A stretch of DNA of 64,000 bases from Auricularia sp. M13 (lineage: Eukaryota > Basidiomycota > Agaricomycetes > Auriculariales > Auriculariaceae): the NCBI GenBank assembly GCA_037042915.1, contig CM073196.1, positions 248,001-312,000 of the forward strand, read 5' to 3'. A program made the position numbers and the translations under genes. The notes under the pieces were generated by a model. That model had not been told where the DNA came from, ran no database searches, and was given only the letters and a program-made list of their open reading frames with translations. Positions 43,421-63,334 of the stretch are shown here, piece by piece. Every line of letters starts with the position of its first letter. The first letter of the stretch is position 1.

Positions 43421-44593
43421 GCGACCGACAAGCGGCTGCTATAGCTCGCCGCCGTTCCTTTGCTCTCTGCAAGGCTGTTACCGCGCTCTCTTTACATGAA
43501 CCGCGCCCGCGACGAGCTCCGCGCAGACAGCGCGACGGATCCCAGCGCCCTGGATTGCGAGGCCACGCGTGTATCGCTGACCTACCGGGGCGCGGACGTT
43601 CCACGACGCGAGCCGGTCGTCCAGCAGGCGCGCTTCGAATCCTTGCATGATTCGAACGCTAACGCAGTTCAGCAGGCGCCCCGCGGCGCGCACAGCCATC
43701 GTATCAACGCGCCTGCCGGTCGAATTGGGAGCACACAGGTGAGCTTCAATTCTTTGATTTTTCGTCCCACCAACGGCTTTAGGCTATCGGCGTTGCCCTC
43801 ACGTCGTTCCTGCTGCTTTTTGTCAACGTTCGCCTCGCGTTTATAGTCTCCTGCATTCTTACCGCTGTCGCGTTCGCGAGTTTATTCGTGATCGTTGCGT
43901 GCCAGTGGTACTTCGTTGCACACTATCCCGACCAGGCATTGTCATTCCATGCCGTCGCTGCCTCAGCGGGCGGACTCACCCTCCATACTTGTGCCGTGTT
44001 TGCTTATGCCTGCGTTCACTTGTCTATTATGTTGACAGATTGAACTACTTGTATCACCGTTCGAAGTGTTTCTTGATGTAGCTTAATGTAGCAGTCAGCT
44101 GCACATATCAATAAATCAGTGTTTTCTTGCAGAACAAAAATACAGAAGTAACAGTGAACGGACGCGACTCACGGATATCTTTCTCGTGGGAGGATCAATT
44201 CCTGACTATAAATTTCTCAACGGCAATGGTTTCTTGCGGGAAAGAAAACTCAACGAAGCAGCCCAACTCACATCGCGATATTGTCATAATTACTGACCGT
44301 TCACATGGACACGCATCGGGTATCCGGTTCCGCGCAAGTGTATAGTCAGCTCGAGAAATTCTCTCACATTGAATCTGATTGTCTTGATTATGACGGATGT
44401 GGTGCGCGTACTGGTGACAATGTTGAGCTAGGCTGCGGGTTACAATAGATGATACGCACCGTGAATCATATAAACCTGCGTCTACTCATCATGTATGCGG
44501 CGTGATCAGCTTTGCTGTCTTGGGTCAAGAACACATCTGGTCAAGTGGTTTACATTGCTGACATTTAAGGGAAAGATTCGACGAGACATGTAT
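43421..44593. other. intergenic region
   Basis: No supported gene. Short open frames at 43460-43846 lack motifs. The second half is AT-richer than its surroundings and presumably includes the 3' flank of the minus-strand gene that follows. Confidence 0.4.
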
Positions 44594-47500
44594 CTACGCG
44601 GACCACGGCACAACGGTCGGGTACAACATCGGAACTGGCGGCTCGCGCAAGAAGTAATCTGAATACGTCTGGGCATAGGCGCGCCAGACATGTTGCTCGA
44701 ATGAGACGAAGCGCGACTCGTCATCGAATGCATCGGGCATTGCGGGGAGAGCTGCGCGCGGCCAAGTAGACGCGACGCGGTGGAATGCCCGTATCGAAGC
44801 TTGCCGCTGGCGCCAGTCCGCAGCGGTCAGAGGACTCGGCCCTTTCGGCACGAACGTTGTGTCGCCCCAGATCTCTGTTATCATGCGCGTACGCTCGAGC
44901 ACCGACTCCGTGTTCAGCGCCTCGCACGACGGGTACGCGCGACGCAGATGGTCATCGAGCTGGAATAGCGCAGTGCGAAACGTGAGCTCGGCCATGTCCC
45001 AGATAATCATCGTCCTCCATTCCGCGGACGGCCAGACGTATTTCAAGTCGCCCGGGGCACATGCGAACGCAGGCAGCATATGATTGTTGTAGAACAACGG
45101 GCCTTCCTCGGGCTGCAGCACATCGTGCAGGCGCTGACGCGGTGTCGGGCCGATTAACGGCCCCGTTTCTGAGGGCGCGACTGACGTCGAGGACGTTGCG
45201 GTGGGCTGCGGCGCCGACGACGCGACGGTAGAGGTGGAGGCGACTGCACCTTGCGGCGCCGACGACGTCGGTGATGTTGCCGTGAGTTGCGGCGCAGACG
45301 ATGTGAGCGAGGATGAAGGTTGCAGCGCGGACGACGCAAAGGATGTTGAGGGGGAGGCAGCTTGCGGCCCGGAAGAGCGATGCTCGGGTCCAGGTGCGGC
45401 TGGATCTGCAGCTGCAGCTGGAGGAAGGCTTCCTGGCAGCGGCGCGTTCGGGTAGAGCTTGGCGTACTCGCTGACTGCCAATGCGAATCTCCGGCTGCGC
45501 GTGCGCGAGCCGACCGCCCCGAGCGCGTCCATGGGAACCTGCAAGCTAGTAGCGCAGGTTGCAATTAGTGATCTTGTCCTCACAGCGATGTCGCGCACTC
45601 ACGGAGCGTCGAAGGACTGCGCTGGCCAGAGGCGCAGCTGAACCGGCTTGTCCTTCGTCCCATACAGGTACTTGGGCGTGTTCCCGCTATACAACCGCAG
45701 CGGCTTTGTCAAGCGCTCTCCTGCCAGAGCGCCGCCTTCGCAGATCCCGTCGTCCATGAGGTAGTACAGCACCCTGCCGTTCTCGTAATCCCACCACTGG
45801 AAACAGTCCTCGTAATCGGCCCGATTGTTGCCCTTGAGACCGAAGAGCTTGAACTCCAGATAGCCATCGTCACCTTCACCTTCCTCGCCAAAGTGCTCGA
45901 AGTCCTTGAGCGCTCGTTTGTTCCCCTTCTTTGTCCAGCGCCAACCCGACGGCTCGTGGAGGTAACGATCGTCCTCGCGCGCCAAAAGTCGTCCGTCCGA
46001 AGTGCGCTGCCCACCCACTGCATTCTCGAAGTACCGGCTCTCGACCTCGATGCGAGTGCCGTCCGGGTTGACGCGCGTCATGTCGACGTCGTCGTCCGAG
46101 TCGTAACCCTGCCCGCCTGCACCCTCGACGGGGCTCGCCACTCGCGTAGTGGGTGCTGTCGATGGAGGCTCGGAAGCGTAAGTCGATGCGGCAGACGACG
46201 AGGACGAGATCGAGGATGACGCCTCGAAAGACGGTATGTGCAGCTGCGACGGTGCGACATCCAGCTCGACCTGGATCGATTCGGGCTCGGGCTCGATATG
46301 TAATCCGAGTGCTCTCGTCCATTCCACATCGCGAGTTGCAGGGATGACGGCGCGCAGGATGGCGCGCCAATCCTCCCGGTCGAACTTGGAAACTTCTCGG
46401 ATAGGCTGCGTCGCCAGGCTGCGCATCCGTTGCGGTCGAATCCTCATCCACGCGGCCAGCATGAGCGAACGCTTCGTCTCCTTGTCCTCGCCGCGAAAGC
46501 CCACGAGATGCTCCATGACAGGTACTAGCAACAGGCGCCCAGGATTTGCTTTTTCGTCGACTGGGAAGTCGGGCGCAGAAGACAGCATCTTGACGCGCTC
46601 TTGGGATCGCCCCAAAGTCTTTGCGACGGCGTCTTCTGCCACCGGCCAGTCCTGCGGCCACCAGGCGGGATACAGAGGCTTGTCGGCACGACGCTTGCTG
46701 TACGGCCATCGCACCTTGTCCGCGGCCTTCGATTCGCGCTCTTGTTTCTTCTTCGCACCACGCGCCTGCTCTTCCCTGCGGGGTTTCTTTTGCTGCCCGG
46801 GTTGACCTGATACATCTCATTAACCCTCACGCCGCAAGGTCCTATGTAGCATACCTTTGGCTTTACGCTTCTGGCCACGGACTGCCTGCTGGATATCCAC
46901 CTCCATCGCGTCCTCGACGCCGCCGCGCACGTCGTTGAGACCGGGGTCGTCGTCGTAGGGAATAACTACTTAGTCAAGATCAATTGCTGCGTAGCACAAT
47001 TGAACGCCGGGACGCACCTGTCAGCATCGAACTGCTAGCCCATCCTGTCTGTGCCGACGGCGGAGCTTGTGGATGTTGCCCTGGCGGTACCGTCGCTGGA
47101 ACGGGCGGCGGCGCCGGCAACACTTTGGGCGCGGGGACTTGGGGCGCGGCGGCTGGCGGCACGGCGAGTTGTGGCGCGGCGACTTGGGGCGCGGGGACTT
47201 GGGGCGCGGGGACTGTCGACACGGGGAGTTGTGGCGCGGCGACTGGTGGCGCGGCGAGTTGCAGCGCGGCGGCTGGCGGCACGGCGACTGGCGGCACGGC
47301 GAGTTGTGGCGCGGCGACTGGTGGCGCGGCGAGTTGGGGCGCAGCGACTGGCGGCGCGGGCGGCGGTGGCGGCACCGGCCCATCGTCGTTCATAATGGTA
47401 TCGTCGTCTTGCCGGAATTCGTCGGTCGCAGGCGGTGGAGGTTGGCCCCATTGCAGATGCTGATCCTCCTGATACGCTCCGACGTGGGACACAGCGCGCG

Positions 47501-49154
47501 AGTCGTTCCAGGCGCGTCGCGCGTGATGCAGCTGCAGCAGGTCGTTGATGAAGACCATGCTGCCGGGTGCGTACTGGTCCACATTCGGCACAAAATCCCT
47601 GGACACCACTTCGACCATGAAAACGGGGATGCCGTACTGCCCGTAGCGCTCCGCGATCTCATGATCGTGAGTGAAGACGCCGCGCGACCAGCGTCGCGTC
47701 CGTCGATCCATTGCGTTCGCGGTGGGAAGCATCGGCGCGCCTGGATGGCGGTCCGACAACTGGCGAAGCCAGACTCGACAGCGCACATATTCATTCCAGC
47801 CGCGCATCTCCAGCAGAGCCCGCTGGAAGCTCGCCATCGATTCCACTGCCTCGCGCTTCGTCACTTGGTGGTGGGTGAGCAGGTCGAGCGCGAGGAGACC
47901 GCTGTTGACGATGGAATAGGGCTGGCCGACAAGGCGGGGGTGGCGTTGCATGTTGTCCAGCAGCTTCTCGTAGTCCATCCTCCAATACAAGTTCATCTTC
48001 CGCCTGAGTTGCTCGCCGCACATGTACATGTTCCGGCCACACGATGTGAAATGCCCAGAAAAGTCGGGCACGTACCACGCGATGTCTTGGTCGAGAGCTT
48101 GATGCTCGTTGCGGTGCGGCCGACCATCTGAGCGCCCCTGGGGAATGAAAGCGCGATACCACATGCCGATCTCATGCCATTGCGCATATCGCGACAATTC
48201 GCCTGCGCCGTAACGGCCGTCCGTACGCCGGACGGGGAGCGATGTAGGCGGCAGTGGCGGAATGTAGTCGACGTTGGTGCGAATGTACACGAGATTTCCG
48301 TGTTGATTAGGCTCGGGAGCGGGGAAGAGCGTATACGAGTTATAGAAGAAATCTCGCAATTTCGGCAGCGCGAGCGGATCGCGTCGGTACGCTTCGCGCG
48401 GGAGGACGTGCCACAGTACGACATGTTCACTGCTGAGCGGCGTCTCGCACGGCTTCATGAACGCAATGCGGTCTTGGGCGCTGCGCCGTAGCTTTTCTTC
48501 TCGGTCCCGAACTCGCATTTGCTCCGGGTTGACCTCGCCTTTCTTGACGACAACGCTCGCTTTCTCCAGCCAGGCCGTTGAGTCCGGTAGCCAAGTCTTC
48601 TCCAAATACTCGGCGAGGTCAAATTCGTCTTTGAACGGCCTGGTGCGCGGCCCCCACGGCTTTGGCAAAGGCATCGGACCGAGGGAGAAGAAGCCGTATT
48701 GGTGCGTACCCTCGGGAGGCGGTTGCAGCAGCCAACGGTGCCATGCTTCATCGTTGATAGGAAAGGGAGGGGGGTCTCGCCACGGCAGTATGAGTCGATT
48801 CAGCGCTGCGTCGACGTCGGGCGTGTGACGCCGACGAAGCTCGTGTATCTCGTGCACGTTCTCCATGCAGCGCAGAAATACGAGCATCTCGACGCTGATG
48901 TACCGGCCGACCTCGCCCGTCAATCGCCGTGTTGGATACCGAATTGCAGCGAAGTCGGCGAGTGCGAGCGCGGTTTCGGTCGTCTCCTCCTCTCCCTTTG
49001 TGAACTCAGCAGGAATTGCAGCGGCTGCCTCTCTGCGGAAGACATCAATCCCATAGGTGACAGATTGGGCAGGCCAGACTTACGGGTCCAGCGGTGGAGT
49101 GACAGCGCGAGCCTGATCGTCGCCGTGCTCGACGGCCGCAAAATCGCCCAACAT
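44594..49154 (-). CDS. 1450-aa protein of unknown function (5 exons)
   Basis: Three large open frames join into one gene. Exons 49154-49084, 49032-47018, 46965-46855, 46806-45603 and 45545-44594 total 4353 nt, exactly 1450 codons plus stop, with clean GT-AG introns of 40-57 nt. I recognise no domain. The N-terminal 600 residues are globular (PINDEAWHRWLLQPPPEGTH, DFSGHFTSCGRNMYMCGEQL, GMWYRAFIPQGRSD). Then comes a Pro/Ala repeat (47.39-47.07 kb, VAAPQLAAPP units), a basic patch (QQKKPRREEQARGAKKKQ), a second globular part (ESRYFENAVGGQRTSDGR, DCFQWWDYENGRVLYYL) and, after a Ser/Ala linker, a third (FYNNHMLPAFACAPGDLKYV). It might be a lineage-specific mushroom family or cargo of the nearby KDZ transposon; no function is proposed. 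An in-frame ATG at 49172 is an alternative start. Confidence 0.75.
47070..47395 (-). repeat. Pro/Ala-coding minisatellite inside the 1450-aa gene
   Basis: Imperfect units of about 15-30 bp (gcgcggcgactggtggc and relatives on the plus strand) encode VAAPQLAAPPV-type repeats. The tract probably forms a flexible linker between two globular regions and is likely to vary in length between strains. Confidence 0.75.
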
Positions 49155-49768
49155 CTGAGGCGCGCTGCGCATCAGTAACCCGCGTCTGGCATCGCACGAC
49201 GGCTGGGCGCTGTGACACGCAGTACCAGCGTTGCACTCACCGTTGCAGATTACGCTTCCTTTGCGGCCTCGAGTGGGATCGCCGGAAGGGTCTTGTTGCC
49301 TATACTGCGTGCAGCTGCTCAACGACGCAAAACGTGGCGTAGCGACGACGACGACGCACCGCTGCAGTCACTGACCTGGCTGCCGCGGCGCGTTGAAGTG
49401 AGTGGGCTTGTCCGTGGGCTGCCGACCTCCGCGCTCTGAGTGGTACACAGTAGTACTAGACTCTTTGCGCGAAGCTCTCGGGGCAACGCACGCGGCACAC
49501 TGTAGTGCTGGGCGCGCGGTGCCTGCGAGAGCCGTCCCTCGGTGAAGACGGTAAAGATGCGGAACGTGCCGATGCGGGCGAATATACCCCGAAGCTCCGC
49601 TCGAACTGAGCACAGCCACATCGGAAGCGCCAAGTCTTTGGTTCGGCTGATGTCAAAATGCCAGAGTCTGCCGATCGCAGGTCTCAGACATTTGCGCACG
49701 CAAGTCTGAGCATAATGCAAATCATATATTGCGGGCAGCATGGATCACAACTGGGAAGACTTCGCTAT
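49155..49768. other. intergenic region between two minus-strand genes
   Basis: Presumed promoter of the 1450-aa gene. A neat gtgagt...cctcag pair just before the ATG (about 49240-49155) could be a 5'-UTR intron. No separate gene is supported. Confidence 0.4.
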
Positions 49769-51615
49769 CTAAGGATCAAAAAAACCAAAGGGATCATTTC
49801 CGGCATTCTCGCGCTCGTCGTCGCCGCTGTCACCACCGCCACGACGCTTCTTGTGCAGACGCTCCTTGTCCTTTCCTGAGCTGCTGCGCTTCTTGCCCTT
49901 TGCCTTGCCTTTGCCCTTGAGGTCGGGCGCGGGCTCTGACTCCTCGTCGCTCGAGGTAATCTCGATGACCTGGGTGATCGACAGCGCCAGCGTGTTGACC
50001 ATGCGGCCGATGACAACATTTTGATGGGCATGCACGCGGAGCTCACTGTATCGGCCGTAGCGCGACCACTCGCGCAAGCAAGAGGGCGTCGAAGAACTCG
50101 AGGGCGACGAGCTTGCCGGGGTCGGCCAGCATGCTGAAGCAGCTCGCGAGCGCAGGAAACTTGAGCTCGTTGTTTACGATGGCGACGGTGTGCTCCTCGA
50201 AATTGTGGTTCTAAACCCGATGTAAGCGGAGCGCAACACGACAGCAGCGAGGCAGACTCACAAGCAGCTCAATGCGGACGGTGATGTTGCGGCTGATGTT
50301 GAGGCCTGCGCGACTCAGCGGAAACGGCGCAACCGCCCGGGGTGCCGAGTCGGAAGCGGCGGTGCTGATGGACGAAGAAGACGCGGGCCCCGGGTTTGCG
50401 TTTGCCTTGTCGTCGTCGTCCGCGTCCGAAATGGTGGATGGCGCGGCGGACGCCTCACGCGCCCGTGACGAAGTGTTGTTGCGCGAAGTCCCGGACCCGC
50501 TGGCCTGCTGCGCGGCCGGCGAGCGCTTAGTCGGCGTGGCGCCGGCGTTCTTGCTGGGCGTGCCCGTCGTCGCAAACTCGGCCTCGTGCTCGGCTTTTGC
50601 AGACAGATACGCCTTGAGGAAGATCTTCATGTTCGCCTGGGTAAACGGGACCTTGCTCGCCGGAGCCCCACTCGCGAGCAACGCAGCAGCCAGTGCGTTA
50701 GCGGCAGGGGCGCCGCTAGCAACGACTGCGTCCACATCGACGGGGCTGTCGGCACTGCCGGCAGCGGATTTCGACGAGGGCGATCCCGGACGCGACGACG
50801 GCAGCGGTGTTGGCGTGGGCGTTGGCGTCTTCGGATTTTATGGGAGGAGCATCCGGCGCGCGAGCGTTCCGCCGCCGCCTTCGTGCGCGTCGGAGACCGT
50901 GTCGGGAATCGCTGAAGTTGACGCCGTCGCGTTATCGCTGCCTACTTTGTTTTTGGCTACTTTCTTTCGCAGAACTAGCAGCGACATCAGTGTATGAACG
51001 AATCGCGCACACTGCAACGACGCACGATCTTGAAGATGTTTGGCTGGGAATGCGGCGAACTCGACGTGCGACAGGTCGTATACAGCGCATGGGCCGGTGC
51101 GACCTTTCGGTGTGCCCGGGACAGGGTCAGGCTTGCACAGAAGGCACTGCGCGCGTTCTAAGTTGGCGAATGAACGACGGAGAAAAAACACGAACCCTGA
51201 TGAATATGCGTTGTTCGTATGCCTTCGTGCGAAAGGTGGACAGATCAGGCCAGGTCGCGCCGCACGTAGTACACATGATGTCCTCCAGCCGCGGCGGTCG
51301 AACGTTAGTGAGCCGGACTTTGGGATCGTGCGGGCCGCAGATGTACACGTGCCCGTCGGGCACGGCGTCGGGCAGGATGTTCTTGAATTCGCGATACGCG
51401 TCCTGGCAGGAGCGCGTGTCCCGTCCGTACACGTCCAGCAGCTCACCGGGACTGACGAGCGCAGGAGCTTGCCGAGACTGAGTTGCAGACGGGGCGCGGA
51501 ACGCGGGCGGCTGGTCGCCGGGCTTCTTGTTTTTCTTGCCGTCGTCGGACTTGGCTGCTTGACTGGCGGCGAGCGCGAGTCTTTTGAGCGGGTTGGGGCG
51601 GTCGAAGGGCAGCAT
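49769..51615 (-). pseudogene. zinc-ribbon-like unknown protein, possibly broken by an in-frame stop
   Basis: The first exon, from the ATG at 51615 (MLPFDRPNPLKRLALAASQ), holds a Cys pair CTTCGATW. An intron to about 51146 brings in a second pair, CLLCKPDP, giving a CxxC...CxxC zinc-ribbon-like module, then GPCAVYDLSHVEFAAF. The frame runs to RRMLLP and a TAA at 50838, yet continues in the same frame without an ATG as NPKTPTPTPTPLPSS... to about 50250. Further minus-strand pieces follow (NHNFEEHTVAIVNNELKFPALASCFSMLAD; WSRYGRYSELRVHAHQNVVIG), ending in a Lys/Asp-rich nuclear-type tail at 49769. Either the TAA is a nonsense mutation in one gene of over 500 residues, or an unseen intron removes it, or two genes abut. 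Unknown function. Confidence 0.55.
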
Positions 51616-52482
51616 GGCGAGAACTAGAGGCGAGAGTGCGCGCAGTGAAGGGGACCAGTGAGGGGATGGTGGGATGGTGAAGTCGACGGATGGGTCGCGC
51701 TTTTATAGAGGTTGAACGAGAACCTGCGCCTTTGCGAGAAAACGCACAAGTCGGTTGTCCGAGCCTGACACGAGAAGAATGACGAGAGATTCCAACAGAA
51801 TTCCACGATATGCAATCCGAAGTACCAAGGCATGATTTAGAAGCACACTGCGGCCACGACGAGATGTATTGTGAAACACGGAGGTTGATGCAGGATTATC
51901 GACCGCGAAAGCAAAAAGACAGCGCCTCCAGCACGACTCCCGCTCCAGCTTTGCAGAGGCAGAAAACTCAAAGAGATGCTTGCGCGCGAGGTACACACAG
52001 ACGCAGACAGACGGGCGACGCGCGCGGGCAAGCAGCAATCGTTGGACCCAAGCGCGACGGCCTTAGGAACGAACAGAGCCCGGAAATCAATGTTCCCCGT
52101 AAATGAGGTCTGCCGACGAGATCTGCACCCACGCGGGCAGCTTCACAGCATGGTCACGACCCAGTCAGCAGGCAACAGCGACGAGCAGCGCGCGAGCAAA
52201 ACCCGCATGAGGCGAACACCAAGCTCCAGCGAGTCGATGTTACATGCTAATAGTCTATCTGTGAGAAGTACACCTCGTTAGTCACTGATTGGCACTGGCA
52301 AGCTTGAATGTTAACTGATGTTTCAACAGCTGACAAACCGACGCACACTATATCTGATCAACTTGATTATCGCGAAGACTGCGCGTGAGAATGCCAACGC
52401 GGATGAACTTAGTAGCGTCGCAACTCGTACGAGGCCATGCCATGGCGGCGACTTTGACTTGTGGCCGAATCTTGGGGCAGAC
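51616..52482. other. divergent intergenic region
   Basis: Separates the minus-strand zinc-ribbon gene from the plus-strand zinc-knuckle gene, so it should hold both promoters. Short open frames on both strands lack motifs. Confidence 0.45.
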
Positions 52483-52490
52483 GTATATAA
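52483..52490 (+). promoter_or_regulatory. TATA box
   Basis: gtatataagc lies about 85 bp before the ATG at 52573, a normal distance for a fungal core promoter. Confidence 0.6.
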
Positions 52491-52572
52491 GCCCACATGC
52501 CCCGGGATATCGCTCTCATTAACCCACCTTGAGTCCTTCGCCGACGCTCACAAACGACACTCATCTTGACAA

Positions 52573-53961
52573 ATGCCGCGCACCAGGAACCGTATGTCGC
52601 ACCCGTTACTCCCCCAAACCATGTTTCACACTGACTTTCACTGGCGCAGTCCCCAAGCCCAAGAAGACGGGCAAGAAGGGCAAGACGGCGGTGGCCAAGA
52701 AGGGTGCCAAGGCCGTTGCTAGCGTCACGCTCCCAGGGCCGACAACTCGCGCTCGCGCCGGCGGCAGAGCTCCCGTCGCGGTCGCCAGCGATGGCTCCAA
52801 CAGGAAGGCGCCGAAGTGCACTCACTGCGGCAAGCCTAGGGCGGGACACGGGAAGAAATGTCTCGTGAGTCACAGAGTTCAGTGCGATCGCTGTCGAGCT
52901 CACCGGGTTCAGGACGGATATTCGAAGGCCAAGGAACTCGAGACGCTGACCGACAGAGCTGAAGCGCTCGCCAAAGGCGTTGCCGAGGCCGAGGCCAAGA
53001 TGCTCGAGATGCGCATCGACGAGGAGGTCGCCAAGGTGCTCGAGGACGCGGGCGGTGAGGTAAGCATGGAGGACGCCGTGCGCGCCTTGGCGCCCGAGCT
53101 CGCGGCCGTCGCGGGTGGCGGGTTGTCCATGCAAGAGCTCGTCGCGGCGCTGCCGATGATGTCCGAGACGCCCGAGACCGCGCAGGGAACCATCGACCCT
53201 GCTGTCCTCGCCATTGCCAAGCGTACCATCGATCCGGCCGACCTCGGTGAGGACGAGATGGTCGTCGAGGACGATGAAGACGCGCCACCGTCGACCACCA
53301 CCGCGGATGTCGCCATGGGTACCCCGCGGGCCACCACCACCGCTCGTGACGGCGACGAGGCGACCACGACGCTGCAGAACGGGTGGAAGTCCACTCCCGC
53401 TGGCGATAGTCCGTTGGGTTCGTCGCTTCATAACGTGGATCGCGCCAGAAACTGATCTGGGATTCGTTCAGAGCTCGAGCGCAACGGCTGCAAGAAACTG
53501 CCTTACGGTACGCAGATCGAACGCAGCAAGAGGATCCCTCGCCTGTTCCAGGCCATGGCGCAGAAGGTGAGCAACGCGATGCACGTTCTGCGAGCCGAGC
53601 GCTGATATCATCTCAGGGAGACGTGTTGGCCAGTCGCGCTGACGGCTGGGCGTTCTGCATGTTCGTGCCCAAGAACGGGCGCGGCGAGATGAGGACGTGG
53701 CACTCGGACCAGGTCCAAGCTGAGGTACCGGCACTACCTAGCGCCATTTGCGAGCTCGTGTTCAAGACCCTCGAGCCCATCCGCCGCCAGCGCCTAGCGG
53801 AGATCGCCAAGATCGATGAGGCCCGTCGCAGGGAGCTGAGGCGCTGGCAGAAGGAAGCCGCCGCCGCGAAGAAGCAAGCTGAGTCGCTGCGCGCACAGCT
53901 GGACCAGGCGGTGAAGTCGCTCAAGCTCGAGAAGGCGATGAAGAAGGTCGTCCAGGCCTAA
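52573..53961 (+). CDS. 405-aa zinc-knuckle and coiled-coil protein of unknown function
   Basis: Four exons (52573-52591, 52650-53408, 53472-53566, 53617-53961) give 1218 nt, 405 residues plus stop. After MPRTRN comes a Lys-rich stretch (KPKKTGKKGKTAVAKKGAK) that looks nuclear or nucleic-acid-binding. A Cys/His cluster CTHCGKPRAGHGKKC follows, with a further CDRC. Then come an acidic helical region, a Thr-rich linker, a compact domain (LPYGTQIERSKRIPRLFQA; GDVLASRADGWAFCMFV) and a C-terminal Arg/Lys/Glu coiled coil. The TATA box and splice sites are good. I do not know the family. It lies between the zinc-ribbon gene and the KDZ gene and may travel with either. Confidence 0.75.
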
Positions 53962-55251
53962 GCAGCGTCGTTGCTGTCGGGGAGAGAACACGAATATGCA
54001 TGCCTCGCCTGTCTATGAAATCTATGTCAATCTGCTAGTCTCGTCTGCCAATATCACCCCCGCTCACAGTGCTTACAAATTTGACCCTGCCGGATTCCCG
54101 TGGCTGAGCACATGTGCACCTTGTTCCGGCTCAGCTTGAATGATTATCGACAGTGACTGCAGCTTCGGATCACCTCAGTTGTGGCGCCGCTGGCCTATGA
54201 TAGGGGTACATACATGCACCGACCCGACGACAGAGCAAACACGATGATTACGGCGATGGCAATGAGGAATATAGAGCAGAAGCTACGAGGGTCAGCAGGG
54301 AACAGCACGCGAGAAGAGTGTAATAGCAAAGAAGTTAGGAGCGGTGGCGACAGAGCAGAGCGCGTTGCAGGAGAGCAAGGGGATAGGATAGCGAAGGACA
54401 GGGAGGAATAGGATTGCGAAGGAGAGCGAGCGAATAGGACAGCAAAAAGGACGGATGGTCAACGGATACAGCAGGCGACGACGGGTATCGTGGGTAAGGC
54501 AGCGTTAGTATGGGACGTGATGAGTGAACGGCGACGAGTACATCGACATGCGAAGCAATAATTAAGGATATGCACGGACTCGCGCAACGGGCACAACGAG
54601 CAGTCACACTGTAGTGAGGGTGCTCTGGCCCTTCGTCGCTGGGCGGCGGTCACACGGTAGTGAAGACGCCGACGCAGGAGAGGAATGTGGGGCATTTGAA
54701 AGTCAGATGCCCCACCCTCGTAGCGGAGACCAAAAGGCCCGCCGGTCCGCAAAAAGCTCCGTCGGTACCGCGACCATGCTGACCAAGTCAAGGACTTGAC
54801 CACGTGACGAGACGCGCGCCGGGCCGGAGATCTCGAGCGCGTCGCGTCGCGTCAGCATCCGAGTGAGATCTGTGTCCGCGCGGAGTTGCAAACGGACTTT
54901 GACTCTTTCCGCTCGCCCACCACCCACTCGGGCGGCCGCCGCCCGTCGACTCGCGCCCACCCCCGACCGGAGCCGCGTCACCTCTGGCGTGGCTCTCACA
55001 GTAGCTTGCGCACGCCGCGGGCACGGGCAAGTTTTTTTTGTTTCGTTTATTTTGATGCCTCCCTGCGACTCATGCCGTTGCAGGACTTGCCTGGCAACGT
55101 TGCCGCAGACCCAATCGCTGGCGCCCGCGACCGCATTCACTACCATGTGACCGGTCAAAGGCGTCAGTAAGGAGGGAATCCACCGTTTTGACTGCTGTGT
55201 CACCGGGGATCCTCTTGTGATTTCTGCTCGTCGCCGCACTCACTTAGGACT
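53962..55251. other. region upstream of the KDZ gene
   Basis: No gene supported. A purine-rich stretch with gcgaaggacag/gcgaaggagag-like units lies at 54360-54460. An inverted motif pair tgtggggcat ... gatgccccac (54685-54714) resembles motifs seen downstream of the KDZ gene and may belong to its element's end. Confidence 0.45.
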
Positions 55252-58200
55252 ATGGCACCGACCACCACAGGCTGCCCCAAAACTGATCTCTTAGATGTAA
55301 CCCTCCCTATCAGGAGATGGATCTAAAGGATGCTTTTCAACTAGGCATGCCTAGGCATGCCTGAGGTGTTTGGGGATTGCTCAAGAAGCGTGATGAGATA
55401 CCTCAAACAATGCATCAATCAATGTTAGCTATTCAGGCAGCTCCAAGGCTGCCTAGGCACACAGCCCAGGCAGCCTAAGCGAAGCTACCAAGTATTTGCA
55501 CTAATTCCTATTGTATGGACATTACACAGGCATCAAGCAGGCATCACACAGGCATCACACACATAGTTCTTGGGCATCATGTAGGCATCAGGCAGGCAGC
55601 TCTCAGGCAGCAGGCAGGCATCACAACTTTATGCAGGCAATGACTCGAGATGCCTAGATCATGCTCAGTTTCTGCAGGCAGACTAGGCATCATAGGCATC
55701 ACAGCAAGGATAGTAGGCATCACAGACATGCCTAGAAATTTGATAGGCATCACAGGCAAGTCAGCGTAGTTGCCAGGCATCACAGGCAAGTCAGCGTAGT
55801 TGCCAGGCATCACAGGCATGCCTGTCTGATTTCTAGGCATCACAGGCATGCCTGTTTGACTTCTAGGCATCAAAGGTACGCCTGTATAACTTTTGGGCAT
55901 TACAGACTTTCGCTATACTGTAGGCAGAACATGCAGGTGCAATCAAGGAAAATCGTAGCAGCACACCGCAACCCAGGACAGAAGTCAGAGGGTGTCAAAG
56001 TGGTGCAGGAGATCTGGAGAGGCTTGCGGAATAAGGATATGTGCCAAAACGAGTGGGAAAAGCTGCAAAAGAAATCTAACAGGAGTGGCATATGGACGCA
56101 ATTGACGCAAAACGTAACAGTACGTCCTGCTAGGGATCTGTAGTGGCTTCACAACACCAATTCAAATGTACAATCATGGCCTGTGATAGCTGCCAATTAC
56201 CTAGGCGCACATCTGACTCTAGACAGCCCATTGGAGGTTCGGTTGAACGTTCAAAGGATCCCCACTATAAATCCACCATGGACAATACGTAATAGCTCTG
56301 ATCGTAGGCTTAACACAGTGACAGAACTGTGGGTCCCGCTTGGGTAGGCACGGAAGTGTTATTATGATCAGGCGTATCGGCAGTGTGGGATGTTGTTCGT
56401 GGAGCATCCCTCATGTACCCTACCTTCATCTATGCTTGTATCATTGCACCTTCTGCTGAGCGCCCACAGTGCTTTATGAGACTGTCGATGTGAGTGGAAT
56501 GGATTGGCTAAGCCACAACAACTCTGTCAGATTCCCACCATGCACCCTCTGCCTGATGTACGCACCTCTCCAACCATGCTAAGCTTGGTTGCTATATGTA
56601 CCTTGGTTCTCCATCAACATGGGCTATACTCTGGAGACCGTCTGGCATGCAGGAAGTCTCTATGGCCTGGATTACACTGCTTGTCCACCGCTTCATCAAC
56701 CCTCGTCCCATCTGAGCACTAGCCTTGACGAGTGATATGTGCCCTTCCACATGAATAGCAAGCATGTTGCCTCCAAGATACGCACATGTAGTTAAGAAAA
56801 CTGTCCTAATAAAAAGCTTTACTGCTGGACAAAACCCACTTCTGGACTAGAAAGCTTCTGGACAAAAACTTCTGGACACAAACACTTCTGGACACAAATA
56901 CTTCTGGACACAAATACTTCTGGACACAAATACTTCTGGACACAAATACTTCTGGTCACAAACACTTCTGGACATAGATTGATTGTAGTCCTCACAGATC
57001 TAGAGTAATAGGGTGACATATTACTTACTAGCTAATGCAGGGACTAGTAGGGCTTTTGGTTCATTACAGCTCTACATTCTGCACTTCGAAGGCAGGCAGA
57101 CAGCCTAGAAAGGAGATAGGCAATTGATCTGATGCCTATCCCACACACAGGCAGCCTGATTGCCTGAGATTTATGCCTGCACATGATTCTCACAATTAGG
57201 CAGCCTGCAGGCAGGGGAAGGCAGGCGGCTTTTGATGCCTGCAATGGGAGCAGGCAACCAGCTTGATGCCTGATCCTTGGGAAGGGTATGCCTGCAAGTC
57301 TTTCAGGTAATCAATCTGACGTACTTGGGATGTTCCCAGAGCAGCTTACTGATGCCTGTGAGGTCTAGGCAGGTGCATAGATATGCCTGAGATGACGCCA
57401 AGATGCCTGCATTGAAGTTTGGATGCCTGCAGGCAGCAGGCAGGCAGTGCCCAGATGCCTATAAATTGCAGGCAGGAGGCAGTTTGATGCCTTCAAAATT
57501 AGGCAGGCATTGGGATGATGGGCTGTGATGTGTGGTAGCTGCCTGTGCTTGCCTGAGCCTGCCTGAGATGTGTTATATTATTAGGTGTGGGGCTGCAGGC
57601 ATGCCTAGGCTGCCTGTATAAAAAACATCCTTTAGACCCATCAGATAGATGGGGGGAATACATCTAACAGGTACTTATTTGGGACAGCCTGACCTGGCAC
57701 CGACAACCTCTACCTATGAACCACCTCGCAAAGGCCGCGGCAAGAACAAGCTCAAGCGACCCGCATCGTCGTCTGGGACGCCGTCGCCATCAAAAAAAGG
57801 TCGCACATCTATCACCGGTGAGATCAGCTCGTCTGCGCGGCAGGCGGTGCGACTGACGCAGTATCTGAAACAGCATCAAGCACGGCGGTCGAGGCGTCAG
57901 GACAGACGACACCGACACTGAGTAAGTGTTCGTGATGCATTCGCGCATGAGTGTCCCATGATGTCGTTTACAGTCAGCGTTCCGACGACCCCGCGACGAG
58001 CGTCCAAAATCTCTGTACCGCGCACACCGTCTCTGCGGCGAGCGCGACCCCCGGCTTCGAAGCTTCATCCTACACAGGCATATGCTCAATATCGGGAACT
58101 GGTCGACTATCGAGCAGCCCAGGTCTTCCGCCTCGACGAGCGCACTTGGGTCGCCGAACTCCACGACGTTGCTACAGGCGAACGGCACGTCGGTGTAAAT

Positions 58201-60800
58201 GCGTGGACGGTCCTCCAGCGGCATGTTCACCTGGCGGGCCCTGCGACGCATACGTGCTCACCATGTCCAGATTTCCAAAAATACGATACCTGTGTTCATG
58301 TTCAACTTCTCGAGAGTACGGACCGCCGAGAATTTAAAGAATTGTCTGCAATGGGTGAGATCTGATTCCAAAGTAACGGCTGCCGGAGCGCTCAAGTGAG
58401 AACTCAGACAATCCCGAGTGCCTGCCCATCGGCTACGACCCCCCGTGCGGAGACGAGGACGCGCTGTATACGTTCGTCTGCATGTCGCCCTCCGAAAAGC
58501 CCGTCTTCGTATGCCATAGCCGTTCGAGCGACAAGACGAGCTCGTGGGCATGCAGCAAGGATCGCGCGGGCGGCTGCATCCATATCTCGCGCGCCCGCAA
58601 GGCTCTGAAGATGACCGAGGGGGGCGAAGCCGCGCAAGCGGACGAGGAGGAAGCGGGAGAAGATCCTGCTGATGAAGAAGATGCCATGGCGGCGAAGCGT
58701 CGTAAAGGTCGGTCGGAATGTTGTTGCCTTCGCCACGGGGTACTCAGCTGTTGTAGTCAACGAACGCAGCCTCAAGATGCTCGCGGATGAGCAGAGCGTG
58801 TCGTACGAGAGGGTCGGCCCGCCTGCCTGGAGCCGTCTGGCGAGCGACACGGCTCCTTGGTTCCCGCTTGTCTCTCCGCTGCCCGCGTTGCTGCCACTCG
58901 GCTCAGCGCCCCGCTGCCGCTGCGGCAGCGGTCCGAAACCAGGCAGCACAGTCCAGCGTATGGAGTGCACGGTCTACAGCTCGACGCGTGCGGAAAAGAT
59001 TCAGATCGAGGTCCAGCCTTGCGCAAAGGAAGAGAGGGTCTTCGCTGGGCCCGACTTGCGCGAGCTCGGTCTCTTTAACTACAACAACCATCGCGTCTAT
59101 ACGCACGAGCTCATCAACAAGTTCACCAGCTCGTACTGCGCGCACGAGCTGCCATTCCATGCGTACCAGAGTGTGATTCAGAGGACGTACGTAGAGAACC
59201 TCAGTCCGATCGACTTCGTGAACGACGACACCTTCCGCCTCGTGTGGTACTCGTTCTCCCGCATACAGGACCTTGGCGACAGCTTCCAATGCGAGAAATG
59301 CGGTCCCAACCCAGCCGTCGTCATCTTCGACGGTGTGACCGCGGGTTTCAACTCCAAGCACCGAACAGCAACGCTCACGCCCCCAACGACGATATTACCT
59401 GGAGCGCCAACGCGATCGTCTGTCGGCGGTCCGCCGGAAAGCACCGCCGCAGTGTGGGGTCAGTTACGACAACGTGCACAGCGGGCAGTGCGCTGGCGCC
59501 TCAGGTTGACGAGTTCCAATAAGTCCAAGTTGGACGGCATCAGCACCGAGGATAACGAGTCCAACACGCGCGCCGTGCCCGACGCCGACGCCGAGTCACA
59601 AAAGGCAACCCGCGATACCGACGCCCGAGTCTCGAAGCGCGACGCAGCTGACGAGGCGATGCGGGCGAGCCTTCTGGGTATCGCGAAAGAGCTGAGCGGT
59701 GTTGATCCGAGTCTCGGCGCCATGTTCGAGGCGATGGTGCGCACCGACTACGACGCGAAGGAGCTGCAGAGACGGCCCTATCTTGAATTATTGAATCATG
59801 TGAGCACTGCAACGTTGAACCTCGGGCCCGTCACTTATTGTAGCCCGCAGGTTCTTGCTTACGAGTCGGTTCTGATGTTTACCCCGGGTTCGACTTGGCT
59901 CGCGCTGAAACGCTTGTGTGCGGACGACAAGCGCGCAGCCGATGTACTGCTGCGCGAAGTCCCTGCTATTGGGATCGTGGCCCGTCAGGAGCTACAAGCA
60001 GACGGTCAATACTCGCGCGTCTTGAAGGGCCTCGTCGCGTTCGTGCTGGCGCGTGCCATGCGCGTTCTGAGCTCGTTGGGGGAGCATGACTTTGAGCCTG
60101 CAAACCCGACCGGCGACGACGCCGATTGGCGCGAGGTGAGTGCATAATCAGCATCGCCGTTGCTGTCGCTGATCGATATGGTAGACCGGTACCTTCTATG
60201 GGCGCCCTCGCGTGCGTCTGCGCCCGGAATACCCTCACCTGCCTGGCGACAAGAAGGTCGACCGCTCGACCGTGACTCAGAGTGGCGCGGGCGGCATCGG
60301 CTGCTCAGTACTACGAAACCTACGGTCTCAGCGGTCAGACGGGCGGCCTGATGGCCGCATGGTGCCCCCATTGTGTATGCCTCGGTTTTCATATTATTCC
60401 GACTGGCGAGGGGCGAAACGACGTGTTCTCAGCTGTATTCACCCGTTGGGAGAAGGCACCGGACATCATCATCTACGACTTCGCGTGTGCGCTGGGACCC
60501 TACTGCATGCTCCGCGAGCCCAAGTTCTTCGCTCACACGCGCTTCCTCATCGACGGCTTTCACGAGAAGGGGCACAGCCGCTGCTCGAATGCGTGCAAGA
60601 TCAGCACGTTCAAGAAGAACTCCCCCGAGCTGCTCTCTGTGAACTCCAGTGCTGCCGAGTGCGGCAACAGCGGCTTGCGCAAAATCCGTCGTCCGATGAG
60701 CTATATGACGCAACGACACGCCATCGTCTTTGCATATACTTATCTCGCGGCCTGGAATCGCGTTCGCCGTGTCATGCCCGGCCGGCGCGGCCGGAACTGA
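55252..60800 (+). CDS. KDZ-superfamily transposase, interrupted after codon 3 by an inserted element
   Basis: A DDE-type transposase of the Kyakuja-Dileera-Zisupton class. Leaving out the insertion, exons 55252-55262+57705-57817, 57862-57921, 57974-58354, 58408-58707, 58748-60135, 60185-60271 and 60309-60800 total 2832 nt, 943 residues. Parts: a basic Ser-rich N-terminus; a SWIM-like finger (CSPCPDFQKYDTCVHVQLLE, about 58255); a Cys cluster (FVCMSPSEKPVFVCHS...WACSKDRAGGCIH); a CxC-type cluster (CRCGSGPKPGSTVQRMEC, LRELGLFNYNN); and the C-terminal catalytic part (GGLMAAWCPHCVCLGFH, GEGRNDVFSA, Asp in IIIYDFACALGPYC, Asp in FLIDGFHEKGHSRC, Glu in NSSAAECGNSGLRKIR). The last intron would be only 37 nt; a frameshift is the alternative. 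The present copy could start from an ATG at 57649 inside the inserted element. Confidence 0.85.
55735..55890. repeat. 30-bp aggcatcac tandem units
   Basis: About five diverged copies of a unit of the type taggcatcacaggcatgcct, two of them (caggcaagtcagcgtagttg version) adjacent and identical. They are part of the Mutator-like element's repetitive body. Confidence 0.7.
56868..56979. repeat. 16-bp tandem repeat, 7 copies
   Basis: Unit acttctggacacaaat repeated at 56868, 56884, 56900, 56916, 56932, 56948 and 56964 with few changes. It lies inside the Mutator-like element. Confidence 0.9.
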
Positions 60801-63334
60801 CTGACTTGTGCGGTGTAGTTAGTTTTAGACCGTAGTTACTTCGTTGCCTCTACGGGGCACGTCTTGCGGACTTGTTTCCGGAGGCAGCTTACTTACCTTT
60901 GTTTGTGGGGTATGTCGCCAGCGCGCATTTTGTGGGGTACGGTACTTAGATTAGATTTGTGGGGCAGGGACTTGGTACTATTGCTCGGGGTATCCTAGTT
61001 GTATGTAATTTCTGGGTCATGTACATAGTTCTCCGATGTGGGGTGTTTCGGGCCAAAACCCGGGGCATTCCACTCGCAACATGGGGCAATTATCCCAAGA
61101 AGAGACCGATCTGGATACTCCTGTGAGAGTCCCATCGCCCCCATCCGCTAGTGCCATTGACGTCAAACATGCAGGTTGTCGGTGGCCGCCATGGGCATAT
61201 TTGGACCCCAACTCTTTCGGGATATGCGGCAGATGCTCACAGCTTCGGGGGGACGCGATCCCACCTTCAGCACCATCCAGCTTGGAACGCGAAATACATT
61301 GCCGGAGGAGGGAGGAGCTTGAACACGCGACACTCGGAGTTGAGCGTCTCCCTCGCGGATAAATGTTTTCCTCGAGTCAAAGTATCTAATCATGAATTCA
61401 TCGCGGACACTTCGTGGAACAGTGACCGCTCGCTGCACCTGCCTGCCACGAATCCAGGTGCAACTTGGTTCACATATCCCAGCATCGCCGCCTCGAGTCA
61501 TGGCAGCGCTATAAATCCGGACATTGCAATTGTGGCCTGTGCACCCAACTCGGCGATTCATCTGAGCAACCGCCCCGGGCATTGATGGTCAGATAGGAGG
61601 TGGAAGCGATGGCGTTGGACTTTTGTCCGTCGGTCAGATGCGGTCTGCGTGTCATCTTCCGGGCCCACCAGTCTGCGACGGCACTTTCAGCAGAGGAGCG
61701 AGTCTAGCAGAGCATCGTCCAACGAGGAATCACAGCTATCGGGTTTAGGACACACTCTCCGCGCGAGCGCTCCGGAACGATCTGCAGCGTCTAATATTTA
61801 ATATTTGCACTTGCACACCAAACAATGAAGTGTTGATCACAACAGCCCTTCGTGGGCCATGTGCGACTGCCATTGCGGTAGTCGATTCGTAGTCTCAGCC
61901 GAAGCGCCCAGCGCAGCTGAAAGAAGCCTCCTCGCATCCTCCGCCAGCCACGTGACCCCGCCGATTGACGCTTTCGCACATGTATGTAAGTATGTGTTCC
62001 ATCATATGCTCATGTGTGCCCACCGCTAATCTCAAGTTCTCATGTGCTCATCGCATATGTATCTCATGACTGTGCGCCTTCCCCCGCGCTATCGGCGCGC
62101 AAACAACTTCGGGGCGTCGACGCCGTCTGCACCCGCCCGCTTCTCGCATTCAACGAAGCCAAGTACGTTGTGTGACGTCGACGCCGCTTGGAGCTTCCAG
62201 CTTCAAGCTTCAAGGATGCGTCGCAAGCAACGCTCTTCCCGCTTCCCGGTTCTTGCACCGTCGACTCCGACCCTGCAGTTGCCGCCATCGCCAGCTCAGA
62301 AGAACAAAGCTCAGTCAACGCCTACGCCGCTCGGCAGCTCATGACACAACCGTTCCCAGCCGCGGGAGCACTGTAACTATTCCCAGCCTGAGCCCGCCCG
62401 CCATGCTAGTCCTCCGAGTCGCGAGCCTATTGAAACAGTGAATTCCAATTCATCGGCTGCAGTCACGCGCCTGCATGCGCATTCCACCCTGTCGACGTCA
62501 TGTAACAACTCCCGCCCTCCGAGTCCGAGTCCGCGTTTCAGTCCATGGGACCCGGGCTCAACAGCATCATTCGAGGCAATCAAGTCCACCTCTCTCAAGC
62601 CGTTCAAGCTGTTTCAAATATTTGACTGACCATACCATTACAGTATGGCGCGCTGCGGATTCCTGACGCAGACGCACACAATGACACATGTGCAATCAAT
62701 ATTTTCAATTCAGATTCCCAGCTGCCTCCTCAAACAGTTTCAAAAAACTCCTCAAAGTCAAACAGTCCCAGCCCGATCCCACACGGGAGCAAGCCCAGAA
62801 AGAAATCAAGAGAGGAAGCACACTATATCAGCAATCGCAGTAACCTATATACCAATGCGGTGGGGGGCGGCCAGCAAAACGTTAACTCTCGGGGAGGGGT
62901 AGGTTGTGTAAGGCAAACAGGGGGGCGCGGATTACTACACACGGCATGGGACGGGCGAGGGGGGGAGGATATAACAGTATGTACCTCTGAACTCTGAACT
63001 CTGAAGGGAACTGTACAACGGATGGGGGGCGATAGTACACGAGTGGACAGGGATGGGATATGACGGGAGGAGAGGAGAGGAGGGAACGAGCACTAGGTGT
63101 TACTCGGGTAGTGGTAGACGTAGAGGAAATTAACACATTACTAAAGCAAAATGGACGGGGCTCGAGCGGACTGGGAGGGGGGTCGGGGAAGCGCGCGGAG
63201 ACGGCCAAGCTCGCACGCGTGGCAAACAAAAACGGCTAAGTTCACACGCGGGGCAAAAAAGCAGAGCCTCCCACGCGCAGCAAGCAAGCACCCGGACACG
63301 GCCAACCCACGCACCGGGAACGGTCGCTAGACCC
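60801..63334. other. region downstream of the KDZ gene, no gene seen
   Basis: From 60900 to 61090 the motif tgtggggta/c recurs (60905, 60934, 60957, 61037) with related cggggcatt and catggggcaatt, probably the KDZ element's subterminal or terminal repeats. Beyond that, frames at 61151-61585 and 62042-62630 have no motifs. Positions 62880-63330 are G-rich and non-coding, including the 3' flank of the last gene. Confidence 0.45.

Follow-up and report, generated by a model that had tools for sequence, protein, structure and literature searches.

Can one transposon rewire another by handing a start codon to the gene that it interrupts? This question is raised by a 64,000-nucleotide stretch of the genome of the fungus Auricularia sp. 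M13 (hereafter the window), in which a 2,434-bp insert sits eight bases behind the ATG of a CxC4/KDZ transposase gene and carries, in its right terminal inverted repeat (TIR), an ATG in frame with the interrupted gene. A first-pass annotation made from the sequence alone had considered the insert to be Mutator-like and its TIR to be a possible replacement start and promoter. We therefore asked what the insert is, whether the interrupted gene could still yield a transposase and whether the TIR-supplied ATG is anything other than a chance feature. The relevant features of the insertion are the following.

55252..55254, + strand: native start (ATG) of the KDZ-type gene, which the insertion parts from the rest of the frame
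55255..55262, + strand: left copy of the target site duplication (TSD), GCACCGAC, the eight bases immediately 3' of the ATG
55263..57696, + strand: interrupting short element, 2,434 bp, which starts with CACCACAGGCTG and ends with CAGCCTGACCTG
55263..55363, + strand: left TIR, about 100 bp, aligning with the reverse complement of the right end over bases 6-101
57596..57696, - strand: right TIR, about 100 bp, holding a TATA-like word TATAAAA (57617) and the ATG at 57649
57649..57696, + strand: 16 TIR-encoded codons, MGGIHLTGTYLGQPDL, in the frame of the host gene
57697..57704, + strand: right copy of the TSD, GCACCGAC, placed by comparing the ends of the copies

The limits of the insert follow from a comparison of nine elements that share its ends, seven short and two long, all of which are flanked on both sides by exact 8-bp repeats. 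In all nine the terminus ...GACCTG is fixed and is followed directly by the eight bases of the left flank. The seven short copies all start with CACCACAGGCTG and end with CAGCCTGACCTG, and their TSDs are GCACCGAC, TGCCCTCT, CATCATGT, GAAAGACC, CGTTGAGG, CGAGAGTC and GCGTGTCC; the two long elements have their own exact 8-bp TSDs, CGGTCAAC and TGTTTCGT. The 10-bp repeat that had been taken for the duplication thus shrinks to a true TSD of 8 bp, and appears longer in the window because the terminal TG of the element precedes the right GCACCGAC while the host ATG provides a matching TG by chance at the left, a coincidence also seen at the junction of the short copy on C5. Mutator-like elements generate target duplications of about 9-11 bp. 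The length of the TIRs and the 10-bp match spanning the junctions in the window copy are what would make the insert such an element, with a 10-bp duplication, and against this stand the duplication of exactly 8 bp and the fixed end in 9/9 elements, as well as the content of the long relatives described below. The inserted copy itself is without a recognised transposase, and the longest of its listed open reading frames (ORFs), 107 aa, is composed of tandem repeats. Subterminal tandem repeats occupy positions 55500-55910 and 56832-56980 of the window (11-/30-bp repeats of the AGGCATCACAGGCATGCCT type and 16-bp repeats of the CTTCTGGACACAAATA type), and are possible candidates for transposase binding sites.

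The insertion is genuine and recent. In the genome (52 Mb in 14 contigs) there are seven copies of the short element with both ends, the window copy and six others, which are 97.87-99.75% identical to each other at ungapped sites. The window copy differs from the short copy on C5 by six substitutions in 2,434 sites, and this high similarity bears out the recent date proposed in the first-pass annotation. There is in addition a partial short copy at C3:165054-166560, in which the left TIR is split by about 520 bp of unrelated sequence and no right end was seen.

The identity of the insert is best read from its long relatives. Two long elements have the ends of the insert, one of 16,058 bp on C5 and one of 15,943 bp on C3 (C3:3552302-3568244), and these ends match those of the short element at 86.8% over 136 bp on the left and 81.2% over 165 bp on the right. 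Both hold a match to the KDZ transposase (PF18758): in the C5 element it lies at C5:4290529-4291228 in two pieces free of stops, one of them with an E value of 3.2e-32 in a Pfam scan, and in the C3 element at C3:3562557-3563243, where it is read across four stops that could be introns or defects. Among the 20 ORFs scanned out of the 48 of at least 120 aa in the C5 element, KDZ was the one Pfam match. Another of its ORFs looked Ulp1-like by eye and was set aside, as it had no Pfam match at E 0.1. Since the two long elements are 99.4-99.5% identical to each other over their aligned stretches, they count nearly as a single observation. A third, diverged end was found at C4:3052486-3052575 (78%), in the same orientation and with a KDZ gene at a distance of about 9.4 kb, compared with about 5 kb between the KDZ gene and the end in the C5 long element; the two KDZ genes are 67% identical. 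A search for the right end of this third element did not find one. Neither 16-kb element contains a match to a MULE transposase, the six such matches in the genome at E <= 0.001 all lying elsewhere, whereas at this threshold there are at least 149 PF18758 matches genome-wide (a few of them below the curated cut-off), and KDZ transposons look strongly expanded in Auricularia sp. M13. The 8-bp duplication and the presence of KDZ rather than MULE sequence in the related long elements count against the earlier Mutator-like label, to which we now give next to no credence.

Another way to explain these observations is that the insert is a non-autonomous hAT-type element and that the 16-kb elements carry their KDZ gene as a passenger. 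Target duplications of 8 bp are usual for hAT elements, according to PMC12730594, and an 8-bp duplication with CA..TG ends cannot by itself separate hAT from Zisupton. However, the 20 ORFs scanned out of 48 in the C5 long element gave no hAT domain, and the diverged end on C4 also lies near a KDZ gene, a relative of the one in the 16-kb elements. This leaves the hAT reading a slim chance. We conclude, with a probability of roughly 85%, that the insert is a non-autonomous Zisupton-like KDZ transposon that recently nested behind the start of a different, CxC4-type KDZ gene and was probably moved in trans. The class assignment follows from the combination of 8-bp TSDs, TIRs and KDZ sequence in the long relatives.

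The gene that was hit belongs to a mobile element of its own, the features of which are given here.

44583..61121, + strand: host CxC4-KDZ mobile element, the part to which its paralogs align
57705..60135, + strand: exons 1-4, from splice prediction, with the CxC4 cysteine cluster (PF18717)
57649-57817, 57974-58354, 58408-58707 and 58748-60135, + strand: predicted exon borders when read from the TIR ATG, the third intron having several alternatives
60185..60800, + strand: KDZ transposase core (PF18758, E 1.6e-5), out of frame from about 60306

Five close paralogs, 96.8-98.8% identical to the host element over the longest alignments with the insert left out, align with this element. On the left the alignment reaches to 44572-44583 in four of the five and to 45340 in the other, and the right border of the element is sharp at 61121 in all six copies, the window included. 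Searches of the window and the paralog stretches examined turned up neither the right end in inverted orientation nor a convincing duplication at the flanks. All five close paralogs have an uninterrupted ATGGCACCGACAACC, which was the comparison that the first-pass annotation had called for, and its statement that the KDZ gene was struck directly behind its start codon agrees with the insertion that we find behind the ATG at 55252. This ATG is probably the true start of the host gene as predicted, a view favoured because the site is kept in 5/5 close paralogs and because one distant paralog aligns with it methionine to methionine. That paralog, one of four distant ones with upstream DNA, pairs MAPTTSTYEPPRKGRG with MAIRTAKYRPPRQGRG (42% over 31 residues, E 0.005) and shows about 57% identity over the CxC4 region. 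Two others share with the native amino end a ten-residue PP-RGRG match alone (E about 0.95), and the fourth shows nothing convincing against it. A start lying elsewhere in the paralogs, which had been named as a refutation of the first-pass interpretation, was not what these comparisons revealed.

The host gene carries a CxC4 cluster (PF18717, E 6.2e-37), and its KDZ core, a weak match, is broken. The PF18758 score of the window copy, 25.1 bits, is under the cut-off of 26.6, as are those of two close paralogs with an open core (23.6 and 23.7 bits); core homologs at C8:2211941, C8:2991692 and C1:7599975, which are 73-74% identical, score above it with 28-30 bits. Near 60306 the window copy is two bases shorter than its paralogs, which shifts the frame within the core, and the match of a paralog core, used as query, to the window copy is divided between two frames, with residues 1-43 and 38-205. 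When a core match is called open if it reaches from residue 5 or earlier to residue 196 or later without a stop, 18 of 71 matches in the genome are open (the query included, with identities of 60-100%); another two span the core, each with a single stop, and all other matches are split or partial. Within the group of six close copies, the core is open in one frame in two and not open in four, including the window copy. An unbroken model of 943 codons, proposed in the first-pass annotation for the gene with the insertion skipped, could not be reproduced, as the core loses the frame at about 60306. With ordinary predicted splicing the model has 962 codons; it keeps to the frame of the family over roughly the first 787 and leaves the core out of frame. 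The frame would be regained, with 909 codons in total, if splicing used a predicted alternative acceptor after 60308, at the price of about 41 conserved residues, a segment that 18 of the 71 core matches possess; such use is unlikely. The frameshift in the core means that a new start, wherever it came from, could not yield an ordinary full transposase.

It is against this background that the TIR-supplied ATG has to be judged. The reading frame opened by the ATG at 57649 runs, as first described, through MGGIHLTGTYLGQPD into LAPTTSTYEPP; 16 TIR codons lead into the host frame, and 746 codons stay open across the four predicted exons. In one rival interpretation, the right TIR would replace both the lost start and the promoter, with transcription arising in the TIR, translation beginning at 57649 and a fusion protein as the product. 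What speaks for the TIR as a putative start and promoter is this reading frame together with the TATAAAA word 32 bp upstream of the ATG in the window copy. Several observations point the other way. First, all seven short copies share the ATG, and those outside the window close the frame 62, 22, 33, 1, 23 and 14 residues past the TIR. Second, an in-frame ATG open to the junction is expected by chance, given the phase, in 36% of 5,000 first-order Markov sequences, and one of the six phase-and-end combinations of the insert is open. Third, TATAAAA is present in three of the seven short copies (the window, C5 and C9a), the other four having TATGAAA and the two long elements TAAAAAA at this position. 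At a distance of 32 bp, moreover, the TATA-like word would place the start of transcription about at the ATG or slightly past it. Fourth, the base at -3 matters for the context of a start codon, and the TIR ATG has a T there, a weak context, compared with an A at the native ATG. Lastly, the transposase core downstream is frameshifted. The three copies with TATAAAA are also those most similar to each other.

Taken together, these data suggest that the TIR-supplied start codon is probably a chance feature, and make a replacement of start and promoter by the right TIR improbable. Rescue of a working transposase by the TIR start is likewise unlikely, judging from the predicted gene models. We consider slightly less probable still a variant in which the TIR start would be used together with the acceptor after 60308, for a protein of about 909 residues, or in which the 746-residue amino-terminal part, bearing the CxC4 cluster and lacking a working core, would be produced from the TIR start by itself and might repress paralogous elements. 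Among the titles listed in a literature search for TIR-supplied start codons none was directly comparable, which does not show that no such case exists. The locus makes a weak example of start-codon rewiring, with a feature at chance level in a gene that is broken elsewhere.

Some of the other sites at which the family has inserted also lie in transposons, in numbers too small for a preference to be claimed. The 16-kb element on C3 splits another CxC4-KDZ gene, by eye inside a coding exon, the parts of which are 46% and 62% identical to the CxC4-region and core queries, and at the site of the 16-kb element on C5 there is a Plavaka transposase ORF (E 3.1e-47). The flanks of the remaining six short copies hold 33 listed ORFs, of which 13 were scanned against Pfam. 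Two flank pieces of the C1b copy matched DDE_1 (E 8e-16 and 9.4e-5), and the remaining 10 of the 13 gave no domain match. A few hundred bases off the right end of the C1a copy there is a match to a lipoyl ligase domain (PF21948, E 1.9e-7; a second match is below the cut-off), so this copy may lie near a perhaps ordinary gene. Overall, four of the nine sites are nested in other transposons, which is too few to claim a preference for nesting. Two of the nine (the window and C3) are in CxC4-KDZ genes; a preference for such genes was considered and dropped, because the window was the starting point and one in eight other sites is too few.

From what is observed directly, namely the nesting, the ends, the duplication length, the copies, the KDZ-holding elements with shared ends and the frameshift, we propose the following course of events. 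The short non-autonomous element would have been mobilised in trans by the KDZ transposase of the related elements of about 16 kb, and would recently have landed behind the start of a different KDZ transposase gene, of the CxC4 type. By parting the promoter and ATG from the coding sequence, the insertion would most likely have inactivated this gene. The ATG in the right TIR would be a fixed trait of the short family that by luck falls in the host frame, and the right TIR presumably plays no promoter role. The window is, in other words, an ordinary nested insertion that is neatly documented.

Among named systems, the insert most resembles the Zisupton branch of the KDZ (Kyakuja-Dileera-Zisupton) superfamily. 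PMC12730594 reports TIRs and 8-bp duplications for Zisupton, 8-bp duplications for one Dileera family, and 7-bp duplications with CA..TG ends and no TIRs for Kyakuja families of Laccaria; it also describes Zisupton as the only member whose ends had been well characterised before. With Zisupton the insert shares the 8-bp TSD and the TIRs, and its long relatives share the KDZ transposase sequence, the main difference being that the inserted copy is without a recognised transposase. With Dileera it has the 8-bp duplication in common, as far as that one family is described in the same source. Kyakuja, which occurs in mushroom-forming fungi, has the same CA..TG termini, but the Laccaria families differ, on the evidence of PMC12730594, by their 7-bp duplications and lack of TIRs, whereas the insert has an 8-bp TSD and TIRs about 100 bp long. 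The CxC4-associated KDZ transposases (PF18717 with PF18758) find their counterpart in the interrupted host gene, of which the window copy differs in being interrupted behind its start and frameshifted in its core. The ends shared by short and long copies connect the short non-coding family with KDZ transposons, and the seven short and two long copies with exact 8-bp duplications provide clean sites for the KDZ superfamily.
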